In this document: one piece after another, positions 16,739-61,302 of the stretch
How the letters are laid out: every line of letters begins with the position of its first letter
Numbering within the stretch: the first letter of the stretch is position 1
Assembly: GCA_030625885.1 (NCBI GenBank)
Contig: DAOUPZ010000007.1
Coordinates: 1 to 64,000, forward strand
From: Clostridia bacterium
GTDB lineage: Bacteria; Bacillota; DAOUPZ01
DNA: 64,000 bases
Reading direction: 5' to 3'
Position numbers and translations under genes: made by a program
The notes under the pieces: generated by a model
What the model was told of the DNA's origin: nothing
Database searches by the model: none
What the model saw: the letters and a program-made list of their open reading frames with translations, nothing else

Positions 16739-16783
16739 TAAAAAAAAACCACTGCAAAAGTAGGTTTAATCCATTTTTGCAGT
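16739..16783 (-). terminator. Riboswitch-associated intrinsic terminator
   Basis: On the minus strand ACTGCAAAA pairs with TTTTGCAGT (loop about 15 bases), followed by GG and a run of nine or more T. It starts right after the c-di-GMP-I aptamer and before the chemoreceptor gene, so ligand binding probably alters readthrough. Confidence 0.85.
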
Positions 16784-16875
16784 CCGGCGACCATAGTAGA
16801 TTTTCGTCATCATTGAATAACTTTAGGCCCGTAACTTTGCGCCCTCACCTTTCGATAAGTTTGCCTTTATCATAT
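16784..16875 (-). ncRNA. Cyclic-di-GMP-I (GEMM) riboswitch aptamer
   Basis: Read on the minus strand. It has the GEMM-I signature: GGCAAAC, a GAAA tetraloop hairpin (CTTATCGAAAGGTGAG), then GGGCGCAAAGTTACGGGCCT with the CCTAA tetraloop receptor. A second helix returns as CTATGGTCGCCGG, the position of the conserved TAGCCGG-like strand. Known GEMM-I riboswitches bind c-di-GMP and control motility, chemotaxis and adhesion genes. Here a terminator follows directly and the target is the chemoreceptor at 14601-16634. Whether c-di-GMP turns it on or off depends on an antiterminator pairing I have not modelled. Confidence 0.9.
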
Positions 16876-50213: not shown

Positions 50214-51359
50214 TTATATACACTTTAAAATGCTGTCTACTGCATAATCAACATCTTCTACCGTATTAAAATGACTGAAGCTAAATCGAACCGTTCCATC
50301 TGGAAAAGTTCCCAGCGTTTTATGCGCTGATGGGGCACAATGCAACCCACAACGGGTCATGATTCCAAAATCCTTACACAATCTATGAGCGATTTCCCCA
50401 TTATCATGTTTAAAAAAATCAATCGATACCAACGCCGTTCTCCCATCAATTCCTTTTTTACCCACAAGTCTAATATCAACCATATTATTAACTTTTTCTA
50501 AAAAACGATCTAAGAGAAACAATTCTTCTTCCCTTATCGACTTTACAGTTTGCGCCATTACATATCTCAAGGCTGTATTTAAACCATAAATCCCCGGGAT
50601 ATTCATCGTTCCTGCTTCAAACTTATCGGGCATATACTCCGGTTGAATTTCTATTTCGGAAAGACTTCCTGTCCCCCCTTCTATCAATGTCGTCATTTGC
50701 TTAATGAGTCGGTCATTCACAATAAAACCACCAATGCCTTGCGGGCCCAGGAGGCTTTTGTGCCCTGTAAATCCAATGGCATCCGCATTTAAAGTCTTGT
50801 AATCCATATCCAAAAAGCCGGCTGTCTGAGCACTATCAATAATAAAAAACAATCCCTGCTCCTGACAAATTCTCCCCACCTTTTCCAGATCAAGCAGGGT
50901 TCCGCATACGTTGGATGCATGCGTCATAATGACAGCTCTGGTATTAGGTTTGATGTATTTCACCACATCATCTGCATTTAATTCTCCCATTTCGTTACAG
51001 GGTACTTTAGAAAATTCTACTTTCCTACTTTCCAATGCATTTAAAGGCCTCATAACAGCATTATGTTCCATTGAAGATACAATGACATGATCCCCTTCTT
51101 TTAATATCCCTTTTATTAGAATGTTCATGCTTTCCGTAATATTTTTTGTAAAAACAACGTTTTCCGGCTGATCAAAATTAAAAAGTTCGCAAATTAATTC
51201 TCTGGTTTCAAATACAATATTCTCAGCTTCAAAAGAAGTTGCATAAGCCCCTCTATTGATATTACAGCCCACATTGATTAAATAATCTGCCATACGTTCC
51301 CCAACCCCCGGTGCTTTAGGAAAAGACGTGGCACCATTATCCAAATATAGATTTCTCAT
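50214..51359 (-). CDS. Class V aminotransferase / cysteine-desulfurase family protein, selenium-associated
   Basis: 381 residues from the ATG at 51359 (GGAGTG upstream). NLYLDNGATSFPKAPGVGER opens the PLP fold; HNAVMRPL, DSAQTAGFLDMD and the PLP lysine in GFTGHKSLLGPQG follow. The Cys-bearing loop is TRCGLHCAPSAHKTLGT, the position of the sulfur-accepting Cys. This subgroup (cysteine desulfurase family protein) often neighbours yedE, yedF and DUF3343 genes in selenium-using bacteria, as here, divergently. A selenocysteine lyase-like or persulfide role is plausible. Confidence 0.88.
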   Translation of the reverse strand: MRNLYLDNGATSFPKAPGVGERMADYLINVGCNINRGAYATSFEAENIVFETRELICELFNFDQPENVVFTKNITESMNILIKGILKEGDHVIVSSMEHNAVMRPLNALESRKVEFSKVPCNEMGELNADDVVKYIKPNTRAVIMTHASNVCGTLLDLEKVGRICQEQGLFFIIDSAQTAGFLDMDYKTLNADAIGFTGHKSLLGPQGIGGFIVNDRLIKQMTTLIEGGTGSLSEIEIQPEYMPDKFEAGTMNIPGIYGLNTALRYVMAQTVKSIREEELFLLDRFLEKVNNMVDIRLVGKKGIDGRTALVSIDFFKHDNGEIAHRLCKDFGIMTRCGLHCAPSAHKTLGTFPDGTVRFSFSHFNTVEDVDYAVDSILKCI

Positions 51360-51595
51360 CAACAATCACTCCTATTAATTAATAATTATCAATTTTTCAT
51401 AATTCAATACTTTGACTCTAATATTAATTATAAATAACCCAAAATAATATTTATAGGTTATTTAAAAATTTATTTATAGAAAATATTTATACTTAGCTAA
51501 CTGATGATAAATAATCTCTATTATACATTACTCAATTAAAATGTTAAAATTATTTTGCAATTTTAATTTTTTTACAAATACTAGGAGGGATTTTT

Positions 51596-52687
51596 ATGGA
51601 AGGTAAAAAAGGAATTATATTTGGAGGGGCTATTGTAGGTATACTGTCCGTGTTACTGGTATATTTAGGTAATCCTGCCAACATGGGTTTCTGTATCGCA
51701 TGTTTTATCAGAGACATCGCCGGTGGCATTGGCATGCACCGAGCAGCTGTTGTGCAATACATTCGCCCCGAAATCATCGGCCTGGTTTTAGGTGCATTTC
51801 TACTGGCTCTTAAAAACAGAGAATTTGAATCAAGAGGCGGCTCTGCTCCATTTACACGTTTTGTATTAGGTATTGCCGTTATGATTGGCGCTTTAATGTT
51901 CTTAGGATGTCCTTTAAGAATGGTATTACGACTGGCGGGCGGCGATTTAAATGCATTAATAGGTATTGCCGGATTTGTAGTAGGCATCTTCGGCGGCGTA
52001 TATTTCTTAAATAAAGGATTTAACTTAAAAAGAAATTATAAAATGCCAAAATCAGAAGGTTATTTGTTCCCAATAGTCAATGTAGGCCTATTCGCTTTAT
52101 TGTTAGCTGCACCCGCATTTTTATTCTTCAGTGAAAAAGGCCCTGGTGCTGCTCATGCATCAATCTGGATCTCATTAATCGTTGGCGTTATCGTAGGGGC
52201 AATCGCACAAAGAACAAGACTTTGCATGGTTGGCGGAACGAGAGATATGATTCTTTTTAAAGACAGCTATCTTCTTTCAGGTTTTCTTTCCATATTGGCA
52301 TTTGCATTCATTGCAAACTTCTTCATGGGATATTTCAATGTTGGGTTTGCCGGTCAACCTGTAGCACATGTAGATGGTTTATGGAATTTCTTAGGCATGG
52401 TGTTAGTTGGATGGGCTTCAGTATTATTAGGTGGCTGCCCACTAAGACAGTTAATATTAGCAGGAGAAGGAAATACGGATTCTGTTGTAGCTGTTATGGG
52501 TATGCTGGTTGGTGCAGCAATTTGTCATAACTTTGGCTTGGCATCCAGCCCTAAAGGACCTACGCCTAACGGGCAAATAGCCGTCATCATTTGTTTTGTT
52601 ATAATTGCAATTATCTCCTATTTAAATTCAGAAATGCTCTCAAGTCAATCTGATCTTAAATCACAAAGTACGTTAAGCAAATCTTAA
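51596..52687 (+). CDS. yedE: YedE-type selenium-metabolism membrane transporter
   Basis: 363 residues with AGGAGGGATTTTT before the ATG. Two homologous halves of membrane helices, each with YeeE/YedE Cys motifs: MGFCIACFIRD and GCPLRMVLRLAGGDLNALIG in the first, QRTRLCMVGGTRD and GCPLRQLILAGEGNTD in the second. In selenium-using genomes this family accompanies yedF and selD, and it is thought to move a selenium or sulfur species across the membrane. It heads an operon with yedF and the DUF3343 gene. Confidence 0.92.
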   Translation: MEGKKGIIFGGAIVGILSVLLVYLGNPANMGFCIACFIRDIAGGIGMHRAAVVQYIRPEIIGLVLGAFLLALKNREFESRGGSAPFTRFVLGIAVMIGALMFLGCPLRMVLRLAGGDLNALIGIAGFVVGIFGGVYFLNKGFNLKRNYKMPKSEGYLFPIVNVGLFALLLAAPAFLFFSEKGPGAAHASIWISLIVGVIVGAIAQRTRLCMVGGTRDMILFKDSYLLSGFLSILAFAFIANFFMGYFNVGFAGQPVAHVDGLWNFLGMVLVGWASVLLGGCPLRQLILAGEGNTDSVVAVMGMLVGAAICHNFGLASSPKGPTPNGQIAVIICFVIIAIISYLNSEMLSSQSDLKSQSTLSKS

Positions 52688-52752: not shown

Positions 52753-52959
52753 ATGATAAAAGTTGATACATGCGGTATGGGCTGTCCACAACCCGTTTTA
52801 ATGACCAAAAAAGCTTTAGACCAAAATCCAGAAGGTGCAGATATCATCGTTGATAACAATACGGCTAAAGGCAATGTAGAAAGATTCATAAAGAATGCAG
52901 GCTATCAAATGGAAATAATAGAAGATGGTGAAACTTTTATGATTAGTGCGAGGAAATAA
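52753..52959 (+). CDS. yedF: TusA-like selenium/sulfur carrier (YedF N-terminal domain only)
   Basis: 68 residues with AAAGGAG upstream. TusA/SirA fold with the carrier cysteine in DTCGMGCPQPVLMTKKALDQ (CPxP motif). Full YedF proteins carry a second DsrE-like domain of about 100 residues; that domain is absent here, so this is the carrier domain alone. It probably ferries persulfide or perselenide sulfur/selenium between the desulfurase and acceptors. Three bases separate it from the next gene. Confidence 0.88.
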   Translation: MIKVDTCGMGCPQPVLMTKKALDQNPEGADIIVDNNTAKGNVERFIKNAGYQMEIIEDGETFMISARK

Positions 52960-52962
52960 GAC

Positions 52963-53199
52963 ATGGAATATACAGTCATATTTTTCACACATTCCGGCGC
53001 CATAAAATTTGATCGAAAACTAAAAGCAAAAAATATTAATTGTGAATTAATGCCCGTGCCAAGAAGCTTAAGCTCTAATTGCGGTATTGGCGCTAAGATC
53101 GTTTTCGATGGCGATTTAAGGGATATTATAGATGATGAAGTCGAAAAGATTTTTCAAACGCAAGATCATCAAAAAGAATTGGTTTATGAAGCAGAATGA
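52963..53199 (+). CDS. DUF3343 putative Se/S carrier protein
   Basis: 78 residues. Family pattern: YTVIFFTHSGAIKFDRKLKA, then ELMPVPRSLSSNCGIGAKIV with the single conserved Cys. DUF3343 genes follow yedF in many selenium-using anaerobes. Its ATG follows the yedF stop after three bases, so translation is likely coupled. The Cys is a candidate carrier site; the biochemical role is not established. Confidence 0.9.
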   Translation: MEYTVIFFTHSGAIKFDRKLKAKNINCELMPVPRSLSSNCGIGAKIVFDGDLRDIIDDEVEKIFQTQDHQKELVYEAE

Positions 53200-53242
53200 A
53201 AAATAACGCTAATTGTTTAAACAATTAGCGTTATTTTTTTCA
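53199..53242 (+). terminator. Terminator of the yedE operon
   Basis: AAAAATAACGCTAATTGTTT followed by AAACAATTAGCGTTATTTTT; a perfect stem of about 20 bp. It separates the selenium operon from the mop gene. Confidence 0.92.
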
Positions 53243-53326: not shown

Positions 53327-53356
53327 TACGATATGGTAATTAATTGGTATATCGTA
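53327..53356. promoter_or_regulatory. Palindromic candidate operator before the mop gene
   Basis: TACGATAT (53327-53334), 14 bases, ATATCGTA (53349-53356). It resembles in style molybdate-regulator sites (CGxTATA-N-TATAxCG), but no ModE gene is present in the window. It lies 33 bases before the mop start codon. Function inferred. Confidence 0.5.
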
Positions 53357-53388
53357 AATTAAACCAATAATAATAAGGAGGATTTTTC

Positions 53389-53607
53389 ATGGAAGCTGGT
53401 GTAAGAAATCAACTGGTTGGTAAAGTACAAGAAATCAAAGCGGATGATGTGATGGCGCAAATTAAAATGACTGTCGATGGCTGAGCAGGTAATCCATTGA
53501 TTACGTCCGTGATGACGAATGAAAGTTTACAAGATTCAGGATTTAAAGAAGGAGATAATGTTGAAGCTTTAATTAAAGCCATCAACGTTGTTTTTGTAAA
53601 ACATTAA
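53389..53607 (+). CDS. mop: Mop molybdate/molybdopterin-binding protein with in-frame UGA (candidate selenoprotein)
   Basis: ATG at 53389 follows AAGGAGGATTTTTC. The frame is 72 codons with one internal TGA at codon 32 (53482-53484). Before it: ARNQL-type opening VRNQLVGKVQEIKADDVMAQ; after it: NPLITSVMTNESLQDSGFKE and AINVVFVKH. Both halves match the Mop/TOBE family (about 68 residues), so the normal protein spans the TGA. Without UGA decoding, neither half is a functional Mop. No ribosome site or start supports a second gene. A hairpin fitting the bacterial SECIS pattern lies 10-37 bases after the TGA. The gene is flanked by selenium-carrier genes and modCBA. Mop proteins form oligomers that bind molybdate. 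A recent nonsense mutation is the alternative. Confidence 0.72.
53495..53521 (+). promoter_or_regulatory. Candidate bacterial SECIS hairpin in the mop gene
   Basis: CATT (53495-53498) pairs with AATG (53518-53521); a five-base bulge GATTA; CGTC (53504-53507) pairs with GACG (53514-53517); apical loop CGTGAT. The loop starts 23 bases after the TGA and has G at its second position, as required in published bacterial SECIS models. The stem is short, so evidence is modest. Confidence 0.45.
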
Positions 53608-53637
53608 GAAAGACAGCCTAAGGCTGTCTTTCTTATT
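53605..53637. terminator. Bidirectional terminator between mop and modC
   Basis: AAGAAAGACAGCC pairs with GGCTGTCTTTCTT, overlapping the stop codons of both convergent genes. Confidence 0.9.
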
Positions 53638-54679
53638 TAAATACATGTACCGCAGTGGTCTTAAAAATCGCAGCAATTTGTCGTCCCGGAGAAAGTTCCA
53701 TTTCTTCTGCACCCTTCTTCGTAATAAATGCCACCAGGGGTATGCCTGCATCTAATTTAACCTTAACTAAAGGGCCTTGCGGAATGATTTCCTCAACACA
53801 ACATTTTAAGACGTTCTGTGCTGTCGTTTCTATATTGACCTGAGTCAAAATAATATCTTCCGGACGCACCGCAATATTCACTTTGCCATCCTCTTCTGTA
53901 AGAACTCTTAAATGCACATCGCCAATCTGAACCACTTTTTGTCCATTAACTTCCTTGACCTGACCTTCATAAATGTTTTCCATTCCTACAAAACTAGCCA
54001 CAAAATGCGTTTTAGGCTTATAAAACACCTCCTGTGGCGTTCCCACTTGAATCATTTTCCCTTTACGCATAATACCGATCCGATCCGCAAGTACCAGCGC
54101 CTCATTGAAATCATGGGTAATATGAATGGTTGTCGTTTTAATCTGCTCATGAATTCCCTTTAATTCCTGCATAAAATTTTCTTTGGTACGAGGATCAAGC
54201 GCACTCAAAGGCTCATCCAATAATAATACATCCGGCTCAGTCACCAGTGCCCGAGCAATCGCTACCCGCTGCTGTTCTCCACCGCTTAGCGTAGAAGGAT
54301 AGCGTTCCAGTAAATGACCAATACCAAGAAGCGTTACCATTTTTTCCAGTTGCGCTTCCATCACCTTTTGGGGAGTCTTCCTTATTTTTAGGCCAAAAAG
54401 AATATTCTTTCTCACATTCAAATGAGGAAAAAGCATATAATCCTGATAAACAAAAGCAATGTTACGCTCTTCCGGGTAGCACGTGGTAATATCTGCCCCA
54501 TCAAAATAAATTTGTCCTCGATCCGGTTTATACATCCCCGCAACCGTTTCCAGAATCACTGTTTTCCCGGTACCTGTCGGCCCTAGAATAACAAAATACT
54601 CATGATCATTGATGATTAAATTGATATCATCAAGATGAAAATCACCTAATCGCTTGGAAACATTTCTTAATTCAATCAT
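53633..54679 (-). CDS. modC: Molybdate (or tungstate) ABC transporter ATP-binding protein
   Basis: 348 residues from the ATG at 54679 (GGAGTAGAGAA upstream). The longer frame to 54742 runs into heptad repeat and is not credible. Walker A GPTGTGKT, signature LSGGEQQRVAIARAL, Walker B VLLLDEPLSALDP, H-loop ITHDFNEAL. C-terminal TOBE domain (about 270-345) with CVEEIIPQGPLVKVKLDAG, the anion-sensing part. It energises oxyanion import with ModB and ModA; Mo versus W cannot be decided by eye. Confidence 0.93.
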   Translation of the reverse strand: MIELRNVSKRLGDFHLDDINLIINDHEYFVILGPTGTGKTVILETVAGMYKPDRGQIYFDGADITTCYPEERNIAFVYQDYMLFPHLNVRKNILFGLKIRKTPQKVMEAQLEKMVTLLGIGHLLERYPSTLSGGEQQRVAIARALVTEPDVLLLDEPLSALDPRTKENFMQELKGIHEQIKTTTIHITHDFNEALVLADRIGIMRKGKMIQVGTPQEVFYKPKTHFVASFVGMENIYEGQVKEVNGQKVVQIGDVHLRVLTEEDGKVNIAVRPEDIILTQVNIETTAQNVLKCCVEEIIPQGPLVKVKLDAGIPLVAFITKKGAEEMELSPGRQIAAIFKTTAVHVFK

Positions 54680-54696
54680 TTCTCTACTCCTTTTTT

Positions 54697-54760
54697 GTTT
54701 CTCAGTTCTCAGTTCCCGGTTCTCGGAAAAAGATAAACCCACTACTTACCACTTACTCCA
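54697..54760 (-). repeat. Heptad-repeat tract between modB and modC
   Basis: TTTCTCA, GTTCTCA, GTTCCCG, GTTCTCG, GAAAAAG then CTACTTA, CCACTTA in 7-base steps. It adds spurious codons in front of modC. Confidence 0.7.
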
Positions 54761-54780: not shown

Positions 54781-55677
54781 CTAACGGGAGAGCATACCTC
54801 GTTCCCCGCCCAGTAACTCAAATATAAACAATGAAATAACGGAAGCTGCAATAAGAAGTGTTGCCGCTGCCATAGCAAGTCTTAAGTCCCCTGTAGACAT
54901 GTTCAAAAACAGCGATACAGGTAATGTTTCTGTCCGCATTCGTGTTGCCCCAGCCAGCATCAATGCCGCACCAAACTCACCTAAAGCTCGTGCCCAAGTA
55001 ATCACGATCCCCGCAATCAACCCATTTTTTGCTAACGGCAAGGTAATTTTGAAAAACGCCTGCCATTGAGAACAGCCTAATGTTCTCCCCACGAATTCTA
55101 AACGCGGATTAATATCAGCAATGGTTGATTTTAAAACCCGTACCATATAAGGAATATTAACAAAAAATTGCGCAAGTATAATACCTTTTACCGTAAATAC
55201 AAATTTCAACCCATGCTGAGCAAGCATGCGGCCAAAGGATGTAGTACCAAATAACAAAAGCAACGCTACCCCTGATACCACCGGCGGCAATGCCAGAGGG
55301 ATATCCAAAATCGTATTAATAATTTTTTTACCCGGTAATTTAAACCGTTCCATACCATAAGCTGTAGGAATAGCCACTAAAATACACATCACTGTCGAAA
55401 TCACAGAAGTCATCAAACTGAGACGAATGGAAAACAAGATTTCCGGCTGCTTTATGCTTTCTAAAAAACCTACCATACCTTTTGCTAACACATTGGATAA
55501 CGCACCTACAATCAATAAGCATAGTAATAAAATAAATCCTATTGTTCCGGTCTGAAATAAAATGTTTTTTAATTTAAACTTTTTTTGATGCCCTTTTTTA
55601 TGCTCAACTTGATTAATTTGTTGTTCCGATAATGCCGTACCCATACTCACACTGGGCTTTTCAATCTGTTTTTGCAT
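54781..55677 (-). CDS. modB: Molybdate (or tungstate) ABC transporter permease
   Basis: 298 residues with AAGGAGTGGAAAA before the ATG. About six helices; the ABC-permease EAA loop reads GRTLGCSQWQAFFKITLPLA. WARALGEFGAALMLAGATRM is typical for ModB/WtpB proteins. The N-terminal 40 residues are a hydrophilic extension (SMGTALSEQQINQVEHKKGH) not normal for ModB. Middle gene of modABC on the minus strand. Confidence 0.94.
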   Translation of the reverse strand: MQKQIEKPSVSMGTALSEQQINQVEHKKGHQKKFKLKNILFQTGTIGFILLLCLLIVGALSNVLAKGMVGFLESIKQPEILFSIRLSLMTSVISTVMCILVAIPTAYGMERFKLPGKKIINTILDIPLALPPVVSGVALLLLFGTTSFGRMLAQHGLKFVFTVKGIILAQFFVNIPYMVRVLKSTIADINPRLEFVGRTLGCSQWQAFFKITLPLAKNGLIAGIVITWARALGEFGAALMLAGATRMRTETLPVSLFLNMSTGDLRLAMAAATLLIAASVISLFIFELLGGERGMLSR

Positions 55678-55766: not shown

Positions 55767-56564
55767 CTATTCAACGACTTTAAATCCGTGCTTTTCAAAA
55801 ATGGCTTTACCCTCAGCAGAAGCAACAAAATCCACAAACTGTTGCGCTAACTCTAGCTTTTGAGAACAGGTTAAGACACCGGCAGGAATGGTTTTAATCA
55901 TATTTTGTTCTGCTGGAATTTCGATGATTTCAACTTCATCCACACCTTGCACATTATCTTCCCAAATGATACAAGCATCCGCCTGCGCCATAGCCACATG
56001 AACCATGACTTCGTTAACCGTTGCATCTTTAGAAACAACATTTTTTTCCACTGCTTCTACCAATTTATTTTTTTGCAACATTTTTTGTGCTACTTTTCCA
56101 ATCGCTGCTGATCTTTCATCACCTAAGACAACTTTAACATCCGGTTTCGCAAAATCAGCTAAGCAGGTAATATTTGCCGGATTCCCTTTAGGTACGGCAA
56201 TCGCCGGGATATGATAAACCACATCTTTTTTACTGGCTACAAGTCCTTTTTCTTCTGCCGACTTAATATAAGACATTGCACCCGGAATATAAACATCACC
56301 TTCTTGAACCAATTCAATCTGACTCAAATTTTGTGCAGAACCTGCATAAGTATATTCAATCTTAACACCAAACTGTTCTTCATAGACTTGTCCAATTTCA
56401 TCCATCGGTTTACGCAATCCGGCACCACTATATACCATCAAACTTTCTTGCGGTTGATCCGCTGCCTGCTGATCAGAAGCTGCAGGCTCACTCCCACATC
56501 CCACCAAAGAAACCATTGCTAACATTAAAACCAAACAAACAGCCAAAACTTTTCTCATTTTCAT
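55767..56564 (-). CDS. modA: Molybdate (or tungstate) substrate-binding lipoprotein
   Basis: 265 residues with lipoprotein signal LAVCLVLMLAMVSLVGCGS. Periplasmic-binding-protein type 2 fold: LMVYSGAGLRKPMDEIGQVY is the ModA oxyanion loop, and GDVYIPGAMSYIKSAEEKG and GNPANITCLADFAKPDVKV follow. It captures the oxyanion outside the membrane and delivers it to ModB. First gene of the operon; upstream lies a heptad tract rather than an obvious Mo-cofactor riboswitch. Confidence 0.94.
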   Translation of the reverse strand: MKMRKVLAVCLVLMLAMVSLVGCGSEPAASDQQAADQPQESLMVYSGAGLRKPMDEIGQVYEEQFGVKIEYTYAGSAQNLSQIELVQEGDVYIPGAMSYIKSAEEKGLVASKKDVVYHIPAIAVPKGNPANITCLADFAKPDVKVVLGDERSAAIGKVAQKMLQKNKLVEAVEKNVVSKDATVNEVMVHVAMAQADACIIWEDNVQGVDEVEIIEIPAEQNMIKTIPAGVLTCSQKLELAQQFVDFVASAEGKAIFEKHGFKVVE

Positions 56565-56778: not shown

Positions 56779-57516
56779 CTATTTTGCACACTCACAATAA
56801 CGCTTCAACCCCAGCAAATGTGCAGCTCCTGCAACCGTTGTACCAAAAAACACGGTCTCTTTCTCTTTACCCATAAAATTGACGATCGTTCCATTAGCCA
56901 ACGTACTACCCGTGGCAAAGATCATATCACACCATGACAAAACATCCTCCATAGCAGTCTCACCATCTTCAACCAGCACACCAAATTTTTCTTTGCCAAT
57001 ACGGTCCACATCCAGGTCCAAAACACGTACAGCAAAATGAGGCGCAAGACTTTCTAAAAAAGAAGGTTGAAAACCCACAAGTGCAATTTTGGGATCACCA
57101 TAATTTTCTTTCATAAAATCCACTAATTTTGCTGCACAATCCTCCGGCTCATTATCCTTACAATGAATCGTCCGATCCACCAAACCCAAGTAGCGCATCA
57201 CCGCATTGAGTGTTGCAACAAATACTGCCATATTGAAATTGGTGCTTAAGGGTCGATTGATAATATCTTGCAAAGTTCCTTCGAAATACCCGGGCATATC
57301 TGTAAAAGCCTGTCCGCAAAAACCCTTAATTTCCGCCTGCAAAAGTTTTTCTTTACCTTTTACAATAGGGAAGTCTTGTCTGTCGGGATTGCCGATTGCT
57401 TCTTCCGTTGTCAGTGCTCTCCCTGTAATGGATACTTTTTCATCAAGCAGGTCATTCTCTTTTGCAATTTGCAAAAACTTCTCTTTTAATTGTTCAAATA
57501 AAACGTTCTTCTCCAT
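56779..57516 (-). CDS. DUF364 / putative heavy-metal chelation protein
   Basis: 245 residues. An N-terminal domain (ENDLLDEKVSITGRALTTEE) precedes a Rossmann-like DUF364 half with IALVGFQPSFLESLAPHFAV, RVLDLDVDRIG, and the conserved MIFATGSTLANGTIVNFM and FFGTTVAGAAHLLGLKRYC. This family often accompanies molybdenum-transport and Mo-enzyme genes. It lies upstream of modA on the same strand. Proposed roles involve metal or cofactor chelation, not proven. Confidence 0.85.
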   Translation of the reverse strand: MEKNVLFEQLKEKFLQIAKENDLLDEKVSITGRALTTEEAIGNPDRQDFPIVKGKEKLLQAEIKGFCGQAFTDMPGYFEGTLQDIINRPLSTNFNMAVFVATLNAVMRYLGLVDRTIHCKDNEPEDCAAKLVDFMKENYGDPKIALVGFQPSFLESLAPHFAVRVLDLDVDRIGKEKFGVLVEDGETAMEDVLSWCDMIFATGSTLANGTIVNFMGKEKETVFFGTTVAGAAHLLGLKRYCECAK

Positions 57517-57956
57517 CTCATCAACCTCTTTTTCATCATAATTATAGAAAATATAATCTAATTGTCTATCACCTCCACAAAAATAAAAACATGCCCAATA
57601 TGAAAAAAGACATGTTTTAAAAAACTATTTCTTTTCCACATTGGGAGGCATATCCGTTTCCAAACACACCCTATCGGCTTTAAATCCTTAGCAAAGGCCA
57701 CAGGATTAAAAGCTCAGAAACAAGAACTATATTCATTTTTTACTAAATCTAAACATTTTCATTAACATTATATAATTGTTTTGAGGTTTATTCAATAGAT
57801 ATCCTTAATTAGCAGTAATAATTATCTTACTTTGGCACATAATAGTAATAACAATTATATATATCGTTATATTAATAAAAGGAAAATGAAGAAACAAAAG
57901 GAAAATTGGAGAAAAAAATCGAATATCTTCATAACTAAAGGAAAAGGAGGAAAACA
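57517..57956. other. Divergent intergenic region before the Mo-storage gene
   Basis: No gene. A hairpin near 57586-57621 (AAAACATG ... CATGTTTT), a second complementary pair (ATGCCCAATATG with CACATTGGGAGGCAT), and a heptad remnant near 57670-57715. Near 57862-57875, ATATATCGTTATAT contains CGTTATAT, like half of a ModE-type site. The Mo-storage promoter lies downstream of this. Confidence 0.45.
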
Positions 57957-58790
57957 ATGGGACTTATAAGAGATAAAGAAAGTAAAAGACTGCATATTGA
58001 AAGCAAGTTGATGGGAGAATCATTAGTCAGTCATTCATTTCTGGACAGTTTAGAAATTAGAGATCAGTTTAAAATTTTTCCAGAAGTCAATGTTATGAAA
58101 ATTGGCGGACAAAGTATTACGGATCGGGGTGGCAGTACGCTTCTACCGATTATTAAAGAAATTGCGGAAAACTCTGAAAGAGAGAAAATGGTCATTCTAG
58201 CAGGCGGCGGCACCCGCTCTCGTCACGTTTATTCTATCGCACTGGAACTGGGTATGCCTACAGGTGTCATTGCTGAATTAGGATCTAGTATCTCCACACA
58301 AAACGCCTTAATGATTTCCACCCTACTCGGACCTTACGGTGGTATTCAAGTCGAACAGGACGATATCATTAAACTAGCACTTTATATTCGTCAAGGGTGC
58401 ATCCCGGTTATGGAAGGTATGCCGCCCTATGGTTTCTGGGAAAAACCGCCAAAAGAAGGCCGTATTCCTTCTAACCGTACCGATATCGGTACCTTCCTGG
58501 CCGCCGACTTAATCGGCGCTAAAAATTGTATCTATATCAAAGATGTGGACGGGCTTTATACCCACGATCCCAAAAAAGATCCCAATGTCGATTTCATTCC
58601 CAAAGTTGGGGCAAAAGAATTACTAGATATGGACCTCGATGATATGATTATTGAGCGTGCTGTACTAGAATCTATGCTCTATGCACAAGGCATCGACAAA
58701 CTCCAAATCATTAACGGAACAAAATACGGCAATATTACTCGGGCCCTTCGTGGTGAGCATGTAGGAACCATTATTTATAAAGACGTTTAA
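57957..58790 (+). CDS. Molybdenum storage protein subunit (amino-acid-kinase fold)
   Basis: 277 residues, the length of MosA/MosB. Motifs shared with Azotobacter MoSto: VMKIGGQSITDRGGSTLLPI, GGGTRSRHVYSIALELGMP, AELGSSISTQNALM, EGMPPYGFWEKPPKEGRIP and the C-terminal NGTKYGNITRALRGEHVGTI. The characterised MoSto is a heterohexamer storing polynuclear molybdate or tungstate clusters using ATP. Here one gene suggests a homo-oligomer. AAAAGGAGGAAAACA precedes the ATG. Divergent from the DUF364-modABC group. Confidence 0.9.
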   Translation: MGLIRDKESKRLHIESKLMGESLVSHSFLDSLEIRDQFKIFPEVNVMKIGGQSITDRGGSTLLPIIKEIAENSEREKMVILAGGGTRSRHVYSIALELGMPTGVIAELGSSISTQNALMISTLLGPYGGIQVEQDDIIKLALYIRQGCIPVMEGMPPYGFWEKPPKEGRIPSNRTDIGTFLAADLIGAKNCIYIKDVDGLYTHDPKKDPNVDFIPKVGAKELLDMDLDDMIIERAVLESMLYAQGIDKLQIINGTKYGNITRALRGEHVGTIIYKDV

Positions 58791-60525: not shown

Positions 60526-61101
60526 CTATTCCTTCAAGTCAAATTTGTTTTTATAATAACCACTATAAATGGCGCCTGCTGTGTTATGGGCTAACACCCG
60601 ATCTTTAGCAATAAACGTAATAACAGGCGCTTTAGAATGTTGGGTAAATAAAACATCATGCCCCACACAAAGACCTACAATGATATTTAAATCTGTTCCC
60701 GCTTCATTTAAAATCTGAGCTTGCATCAGCGGATGACAGCTCGCTTCATAATCATTTCCCTTACGAATTTGCGTTAAATTATAATCTTTCTTATTCACAC
60801 CACAAACTTTACAGCATACTGAATCGACTTCAAAATGCTGTGCTAAAACTTTATGCACCACGGCCCCTTCACTCTGAGATCCAATACAAAAAGCGATACC
60901 CATCCGTTTATAACCCATCCGTTTTCCAAACTCAATAATTTCTTCAAGACGCGTTTTCTGGCAATAAAAATCCCCCTCGATCTCCGCTGCTACTTTCATT
61001 ATTTTAAAATCTTCCTCAGAAACATTATCAAATTTCTGCGTATCTTGAACACAGTTTTTCCCCTGATAACATCCTTTCTCCTTACATAATGCACATTTCA
61101 T
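60526..61101 (-). CDS. DUF1847 cysteine-rich metal-binding protein
   Basis: 191 residues from the ATG at 61101 (GGGAGGAAATATC upstream). An N-terminal Cys cluster, CALCKEKGCYQGKNC, probably binds zinc or another metal. A conserved body follows with RMGIAFCIGSQSEGAVVHKV, VCCKVCGVNKKDYN, SCHPLMQAQILNEAGTDLNI and GLCVGHDVLFTQHSKAPV. The many conserved Cys and the SCHP segment suggest a metal- or redox-dependent role in anaerobes; function unknown. First gene of an operon with the MATE transporter. Confidence 0.9.
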   Translation of the reverse strand: MKCALCKEKGCYQGKNCVQDTQKFDNVSEEDFKIMKVAAEIEGDFYCQKTRLEEIIEFGKRMGYKRMGIAFCIGSQSEGAVVHKVLAQHFEVDSVCCKVCGVNKKDYNLTQIRKGNDYEASCHPLMQAQILNEAGTDLNIIVGLCVGHDVLFTQHSKAPVITFIAKDRVLAHNTAGAIYSGYYKNKFDLKE

Positions 61102-61302
61102 GATATTTCCTCCCATCTGTTGCTGTAGTAAATGTGTTATTTCTGCATCTTCTCAGAAAATCCCTTTCTTTTCATCATTTTAGAGATAATAATACTTTGG
61201 CAGGCAGCGAACAGCCGGTAGGCTTTTTTTGATAATATCTTATGTATTATATGACATGAAATAAGAAATGAAACCTTCCAGTCTTTTTAATAATTACAAA
61301 AC

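Follow-up and report, generated by a model that had tools for sequence, protein, structure and literature searches.

Mop proteins, or molbindins, normally are small storage proteins for molybdate and tungstate. Members of the family are MopII of Clostridium pasteurianum (1GUG), Mop of Sporomusa ovata (1FR3), ModG, and the tungstate-binding Tub of Eubacterium limosum (9BEB). A hexamer that binds eight oxyanions is typical of the family. Tub stores tungstate as a hexamer, in which the type-1 sites involve the backbone of residues 20–22 and the type-2 sites Ser4, Arg6, Ser40, Lys60, and Ala61 (PMC11980592). The hairpin (SECIS) that goes with a selenocysteine (Sec) UGA in bacteria is described by the bSECIS model as having a loop of 3–9 nt, a stem of 4–16 bp, a G in the first two loop positions, and a distance of 16–37 nt from the UGA; the published energy rule is −7.5 kcal/mol or lower (PMC13188914). 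HGD subunits and CoA-enzyme activases are known as neighbors of the selenium-related proteins YedE, YedF, and DUF3343 (Lin et al. 2015, PMC5322559). The elements of molybdate and tungstate share the active site of formate dehydrogenase with selenium.

The window is a stretch of 64,000 nucleotides from a Clostridia bacterium whose genome amounts to 3.10 Mb in 39 contigs. It contains a mop gene with an in-frame TGA, which is very likely decoded as Sec (Table 1). No other genome in the whole-genome collection searched belongs to its order or class; it, hence, stands for a deep-branching, hardly sampled lineage. The read-through product matches Pfam TOBE (2.6e-8, above the gathering score). Against the TIGR00638 Mop profile, it reaches 1.9e-12 and 47 bits and does not attain the curated cut-off of 55 bits, which the tested relatives likewise miss. 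A purine-rich ribosome site is also found upstream of the relatives. The inverted repeat in front of mop is a likely operator, an inference from sequence alone, and resembles ModE-type boxes. No conservation of the palindrome was seen when the regions upstream of relatives were checked; the ModE-like reading, therefore, remains only a lead. A terminator-like hairpin separates mop from yedE–yedF–DUF3343, and mop is, thus, probably its own transcription unit. An earlier, sequence-only reading had claimed an intact 72-codon frame around a single TGA at codon 32 and the presence of yedE, yedF, and DUF3343 beside it, both of which held, the three genes lying directly upstream. Its assignment to the Mop/TOBE family held for the read-through product. 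The strong ribosome site, palindromic operator, and terminator that it listed are present as elements, with the operator role only probable.

Table 1. Features of the window, with the evidence for each (Sec insertion is inferred).
Feature	Positions	Strand	Basis or remark
c-di-GMP-I-GGC riboswitch	16774–16874	−	64.9 bits
Cysteine desulfurase/selenocysteine lyase-like (SclA-like)	50214–51365	−	TIGR01977
yedE, putative selenium transporter	51596–52687	+	TIGR04112, 526.8 bits
yedF-type (TusA-like) protein	52753–52959	+	Pfam TusA 3.3e-16; TIGR03527 6.8e-16 over N-terminal domain, below cut-off
DUF3343, putative Se/S carrier	52963–53199	+	PF11823, 9.2e-13
Terminator-like hairpin between DUF3343 and mop	53199–53238	.	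sequence
Perfect 8+8 inverted repeat TACGATAT-N14-ATATCGTA, probable operator	53327–53356	+	sequence
Ribosome-binding site AAGGAGG	53375–53381	+	sequence
mop, 72 codons/residues, Sec at position 32 (TGA), stop TAA	53389–53607	+	sequence, profile matches, fold prediction, purifying selection after TGA in relatives
In-frame TGA, codon 32, very likely read as Sec	53482–53484	+	TGA at corresponding place in all 44 different TGA genes
SECIS hairpin ATT-(A bulge)-CGTC[CGTGAT]GACG-AAT	53500–53520	+	codon block conservation, lower-stem compensation
Terminator-like hairpin right after mop stop, between convergent mop and wtpC	53605–53635	.	sequence
WtpC-like tungstate/molybdate ABC transporter ATPase with own TOBE domain	53633–54742	−	NF040840, 465 bits, above cut-off
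Molybdate/tungstate permease, ModB-like	54781–55677	−	profile match
Substrate-binding protein, ModA-like	55767–56564	−	profile match
DUF364, putative heavy-metal chelation protein	56779–57516	−	
Moco/tungsten-cofactor riboswitch	57613–57731	−	RF01055, 70.4 bits
Molybdenum storage protein (MoSto)-like AA-kinase-fold protein	57957–58790	+	PDB 2ogx_B, 5.6e-64
Cys-rich DUF1847 protein	60526–61116	−	close to Mo/Se island

The genome contains the full selABCD set, whose absence had been named beforehand as a refutation. SelA and selB each score above their curated cut-offs, and tRNA-Sec scores above the gathering score and lies just upstream of selB. SelD carries one in-frame TGA itself (contig C20, 47285–48208), followed by the hairpin GGAC[CTGAT]GTCC, the loop of which begins 17 nt downstream and is similar to the mop loop CGTGAT. 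Ordinary genes here use TGA as a stop, as seen in the DUF3343 gene (53197–53199); TGA is, therefore, not a sense codon throughout. SelA was found in all 22 TGA-mop genomes tested and in 39 of 45 other mop genomes. Since selA is common in the phylum, this co-occurrence is weak evidence and merely consistent with Sec decoding.

A scan of public genomes returned 16 relatives of the window mop, 14 of which have a TGA at the corresponding place, including those of Clostridium ljungdahlii (81% identity), C. drakei, and three Desulfosporosinus. The whole-genome searches were limited to the phylum of the window, and Clostridium was sampled only via the public-genome scan. The combined set holds 44 different TGA-containing mop genes (from Clostridium, Desulfosporosinus, Desulfotomaculia, Syntrophomonadales, and others), 18 TGA-free close relatives, and seven canonical Mops. 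The occurrence of the same TGA and hairpin in 43 genes other than that of the window is far beyond chance. Herein, the SECIS-proximal TGA is located 18 or 21 nt before a conserved codon block in 44/44 TGA genes. Many of the genes carry two TGAs, in two arrangements. Subfamily I, to which the window gene belongs, has a single TGA; subfamily II has two in the layout M-U-V-G-G-U, and subfamily III has two, located at positions 14 and 28. A tree built with Sec masked as X groups all TGA genes in a single clade (support 98/93), within which subfamily III is basal, followed by II and then I; resolution inside the clade is limited because only 71 columns were available. Within this clade, the SECIS-proximal UGA is never swapped for a sense codon, and the accessory Sec position shifts between subfamilies. 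The relatives with a sense codon are placed outside the clade and also lack the SECIS sequence. Near the Sec position, TGA-free relatives have Q, K, R, L, V, or T. No Cys counterpart at the Sec positions was found among the 18 TGA-free clade members and the seven canonical Mops; a search of homologs for UGA or Cys/Ser at codon 32 had been proposed as a check. Such a Cys homolog is a rule of homology-based finders and is usual for selenoproteins, not defining.

Purifying selection acts on the part of the frame that follows the TGA. The pN/pS values after the SECIS are 0.166 (I), 0.154 (II), and 0.201 (III), which is lower than before the SECIS, and the final stop is TAA or TAG in all 44 TGA genes; both are expected of translated selenoprotein genes. 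A pseudogene or a sequencing error, with the TGA being a real stop and the 3′ half being dead, has nothing in its favor beyond the TGA itself. It is all but excluded by the TGA in 44 genes of many genera, the purifying selection downstream, and the ribosome site; the retention of the TGA in homologs of many genera in itself rules out a sequencing error. The three outcomes named beforehand as refutations (missing selABCD, an ordinary sense codon in close relatives, a sequencing error) all turned out on the side of a selenoprotein. As a separate observation, the mop selenogene of C. ljungdahlii (L018) adjoins a reverse-transcriptase gene and acetyl/adenylyl-transferase genes, neighbors that may possibly point to horizontal transfer.

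The SECIS hairpin of the window has a 6-nt loop with G second, an upper stem of 4 bp, and three pairs below the bulge, and its loop starts 23 nt after the TGA. In loop size, upper stem, position of the G, and spacing, it agrees with the published rules. The energy rule is not met, with −4.9 kcal/mol for the isolated window hairpin versus the −7.5 kcal/mol or lower of the rule. The earlier reading had paired the hairpin with a distant CATT arm, which is corrected to the pairing in Table 1. The spacing of 23 bases and a G in the first two loop positions held, and the stated fit to bacterial SECIS rules held for geometry and spacing, not for energy. Over the 54 nt from the UGA, family members range from −5.6 to −19.6 kcal/mol, most of them well below −7.5, with RNAfold not always picking the SECIS pairing there. 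The energy rule serves as an empirical filter in searches, does not express a biochemical need, and does not decide selenoprotein membership. On naked RNA, RNAfold favors a competing upstream hairpin, which, by inference, a ribosome stalled at the TGA would unwind.

The peptide SVMT after the SECIS-proximal TGA is written exactly as TCC-GTG-ATG-ACG in 42 of the 44 TGA genes, and the preceding codon is ACG in 37, GCG in six, and GTG in one. The two Clostridium genes instead read ACG TCT GTA ATG ACT. The full five-codon block ACG-TCC-GTG-ATG-ACG, which folds as CGTC[CGTGAT]GACG, occurs in 0/18 TGA-free relatives encoding the same peptide, where the codons vary freely. The flanking codons of the lower stem pair in a subfamily-specific manner: ATT/AAT as in the window, GTG/CAC, GTT/AAC, or CTC/GAG, and, in Clostridium, TTA/TAA with the bulge shifted. 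On average, a gene forms 2.75 lower-stem pairs, versus 1.30 ± 0.18 after synonymous resampling (0/2000 as high), and the TGA-free control shows 0.72 observed versus 0.83 resampled. Hence, compensatory changes maintain the lower stem. On the main SECIS, counting pairs at one fixed set of columns is a weak test because the bulge and mismatch register differs between subfamilies; the register-aware resampling is the stronger test.

The frame would also be open if the UGA were read as Trp or by unspecific read-through. This explanation is very unlikely and was rejected, as ordinary genes here stop at TGA, the SECIS is confined to TGA genes, and selABCD is complete. Sec insertion into a Mop protein, as proposed beforehand, is supported and very likely; it remains inferred, as there are no protein or 75Se data. 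In the proposed mechanism, SelB and tRNA-Sec would decode the UGA at codon 32, directed by the SECIS hairpin downstream.

For the accessory UGAs, additional hairpins were seen. Subfamily II (L024, L027, L036, L040, and others) has a 4-bp hairpin, GGAU[AAUAAU]AUCC, about 18 nt after UGA1, placed between UGA2 and the main SECIS. Pairing is seen in 76% of cells, and compensatory changes are few (three cells; 22/500 shuffles as high). The hairpin may possibly be a separate SECIS for the first UGA, which is suggestive only given the weak statistics. In subfamily III, folding yields a short GGU[GUNAUG]GCC hairpin about 20 nt after UGA1 in many members, not all, so that a separate SECIS for UGA1 is possible and not established.

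AlphaFold predicts a confident Mop fold for the window protein (pLDDT 86; monomer only) with Sec32 in the loop 30–36 between strands 2 and 3. The top Foldseek matches are MopII, ModG, ModE, and Tub, with an rmsd of 1.3–1.4 Å to several Tub chains. Compared with the type-2 site of Tub, Arg6, Thr43 (Ser40 in Tub), Lys63, and Ala64 are kept, and Ser4 is replaced by Gly in the window protein (Gly4) and in the clade. Because this side chain is lost, the bound ion is uncertain. The sequence-only reading had put the selenol next to an oxyanion site. This is not shown; in the model, Sec32 is predicted to lie at neither known oxyanion site of the monomer. The product most likely would bind Mo/W oxyanions as a hexamer, each subunit carrying a reactive selenol on the strand 2–3 loop; the hexamer and the ion are inferred only.

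The window mop is flanked by selenium genes on one side and by Mo/W transporter genes, a Moco riboswitch, and a MoSto-like gene, divergent from the riboswitch, on the other. The genome, thus, likely has two Mo/W storage systems, MoSto-like and Mop. Regions of ∼12 kb in other genomes were compared for 20 TGA mops, seven TGA-free clade members, and 13 canonical mops. YedE, YedF, or DUF3343 is near 3/20, 4/7, and 0/13 of these, respectively; counting HGD-D and BadF too, the numbers are 8/20, 5/7, and 0/13. ModA/ModB adjoin five of the 13 canonical mops, and MOT1 molybdate transporter genes adjoin several clade members. HGD-D proteins are common in syntrophs for other reasons as well. As strict selenium markers are near only three of the 20 TGA mops, the physiological link rests on a minority of neighborhoods. 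TGA-free Mops of the wider clade (L032, L055, L056, and L078) are also near yedF; the selenium link of the clade may possibly predate its first Sec.

These neighborhoods bear on an alternative in which the selenol serves as a carrier site for selenium or as a redox site. The protein would then belong less to Mo/W storage than to selenium trafficking, together with YedE, YedF, DUF3343, Sec lyase, and the HGD-D/BadF pair. In favor are both neighborhood counts, the known association of HGD subunits and CoA-enzyme activases with these selenium proteins (PMC5322559), and the loss of Ser4 from the oxyanion site. Against it stand the retained Arg6, Lys63, Ala64, and Thr43 of the type-2 site, the MOT1 genes adjoining several members, and the WtpC/ModB/ModA operon that the window mop faces. 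Selenium trafficking is only a possibility.

The role of the Sec is inferred and much less certain than its insertion. The most likely use would be to couple storage or hand-over of molybdate and tungstate to selenium status, in cells making enzymes that require selenium together with Mo/W, of which formate dehydrogenase would be the obvious, if putative, example. The likeliest of the three roles weighed, with odds slightly below even, is a chemical one, played by a selenol at the surface of an inferred hexamer for Mo/W oxyanions. The presence of two Sec residues in subfamilies II and III speaks for chemistry, whereas a gate is favored by the shifting accessory positions and by the lack of Cys forms. 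In such a selenium gate, the Sec would have no chemistry, and complete Mop would be produced only in the presence of selenium, matching Mo/W storage to the synthesis of selenium-dependent enzymes. Further points for the gate are the constancy of the SECIS-proximal UGA, the surface location of the Sec loop in the model, and the selenium genes adjoining part of the family. However, two UGAs in many members would cut the yield without benefit to a simple gate, and no member of the TGA clade has a sense codon in place of the SECIS-proximal UGA. On balance, the gate is less likely than not; it ranks behind the chemical role and slightly ahead of selenium trafficking. A bolder reading, toward which the balance tips slightly, is that of a new selenoprotein family in which Sec was not derived from Cys, and the SECIS and its adjacent UGA stayed fixed while a second Sec was gained, moved, and lost. 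The Sec would then provide selenols on a tungstate/molybdate hexamer or serve as a gate that makes Mo/W storage follow the supply of selenium.

A described Sec-containing Mop, which the earlier reading did not know of either, was not found in full-text literature searches, in the May 2026 catalog of 119 prokaryotic selenoprotein families (PMC13188914), in the deep-Sep list (PMC12013277), or in NCBIfam 20.0, and Mop and TOBE are absent from the text of Lin et al. 2015 (PMC5322559). The searches did not extend to subscription papers or to annotations in databases, and an unpublished or merely annotated instance is possible. A link between selenium and Mo/W supply via Sec Mop likely is undescribed. 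Many selenoprotein finders require Cys homologs (PMC12013277), and the lack of a Cys counterpart at the Sec positions may, thus, explain why Cys/Sec-pair searches missed Sec Mop, which exposes a blind spot of such searches. Annotation without Sec decoding would call the gene as two broken pieces or miss it. Sec Mop spans many anaerobic Firmicutes, adds a family to a list mostly of redox proteins with Cys counterparts, and places selenium in a protein class storing molybdate and tungstate. Because C. ljungdahlii, a cultivable acetogen, carries a Sec mop, its function is directly testable.

Compared with known systems, the gene set directly upstream of the window mop is that of the YedE/YedF/DUF3343 selenium neighborhoods (Lin et al. 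2015, PMC5322559). Like other bacterial selenoproteins, e.g., SelD and FdhA, Sec Mop combines a UGA with a hairpin in the coding sequence, a loop 16–37 nt downstream, and selABCD; unlike them, it is absent from the 119-family catalog, has no oxidoreductase fold, and has no Cys homolog found. Two in-frame UGAs, as in subfamilies II and III, are shared with two-Sec families, such as MduS and MbdU. In contrast to these, accessory UGA positions differ between subfamilies of one Mop clade, and subfamily II seems, on weak statistics, to have a separate hairpin for its first UGA. With the Mop/molbindin family, Sec Mop shares a single TOBE/Mop domain of 67–73 residues, the same predicted fold, and the type-2 residues Arg6, Lys63, Thr43 (Ser40 in Tub), and Ala64. 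The TGA clade differs from that family by its Sec, by Gly in place of Ser4, by the selenium genes adjoining part of its members, and, in subfamilies I and II, by a longer loop between strands 2 and 3.
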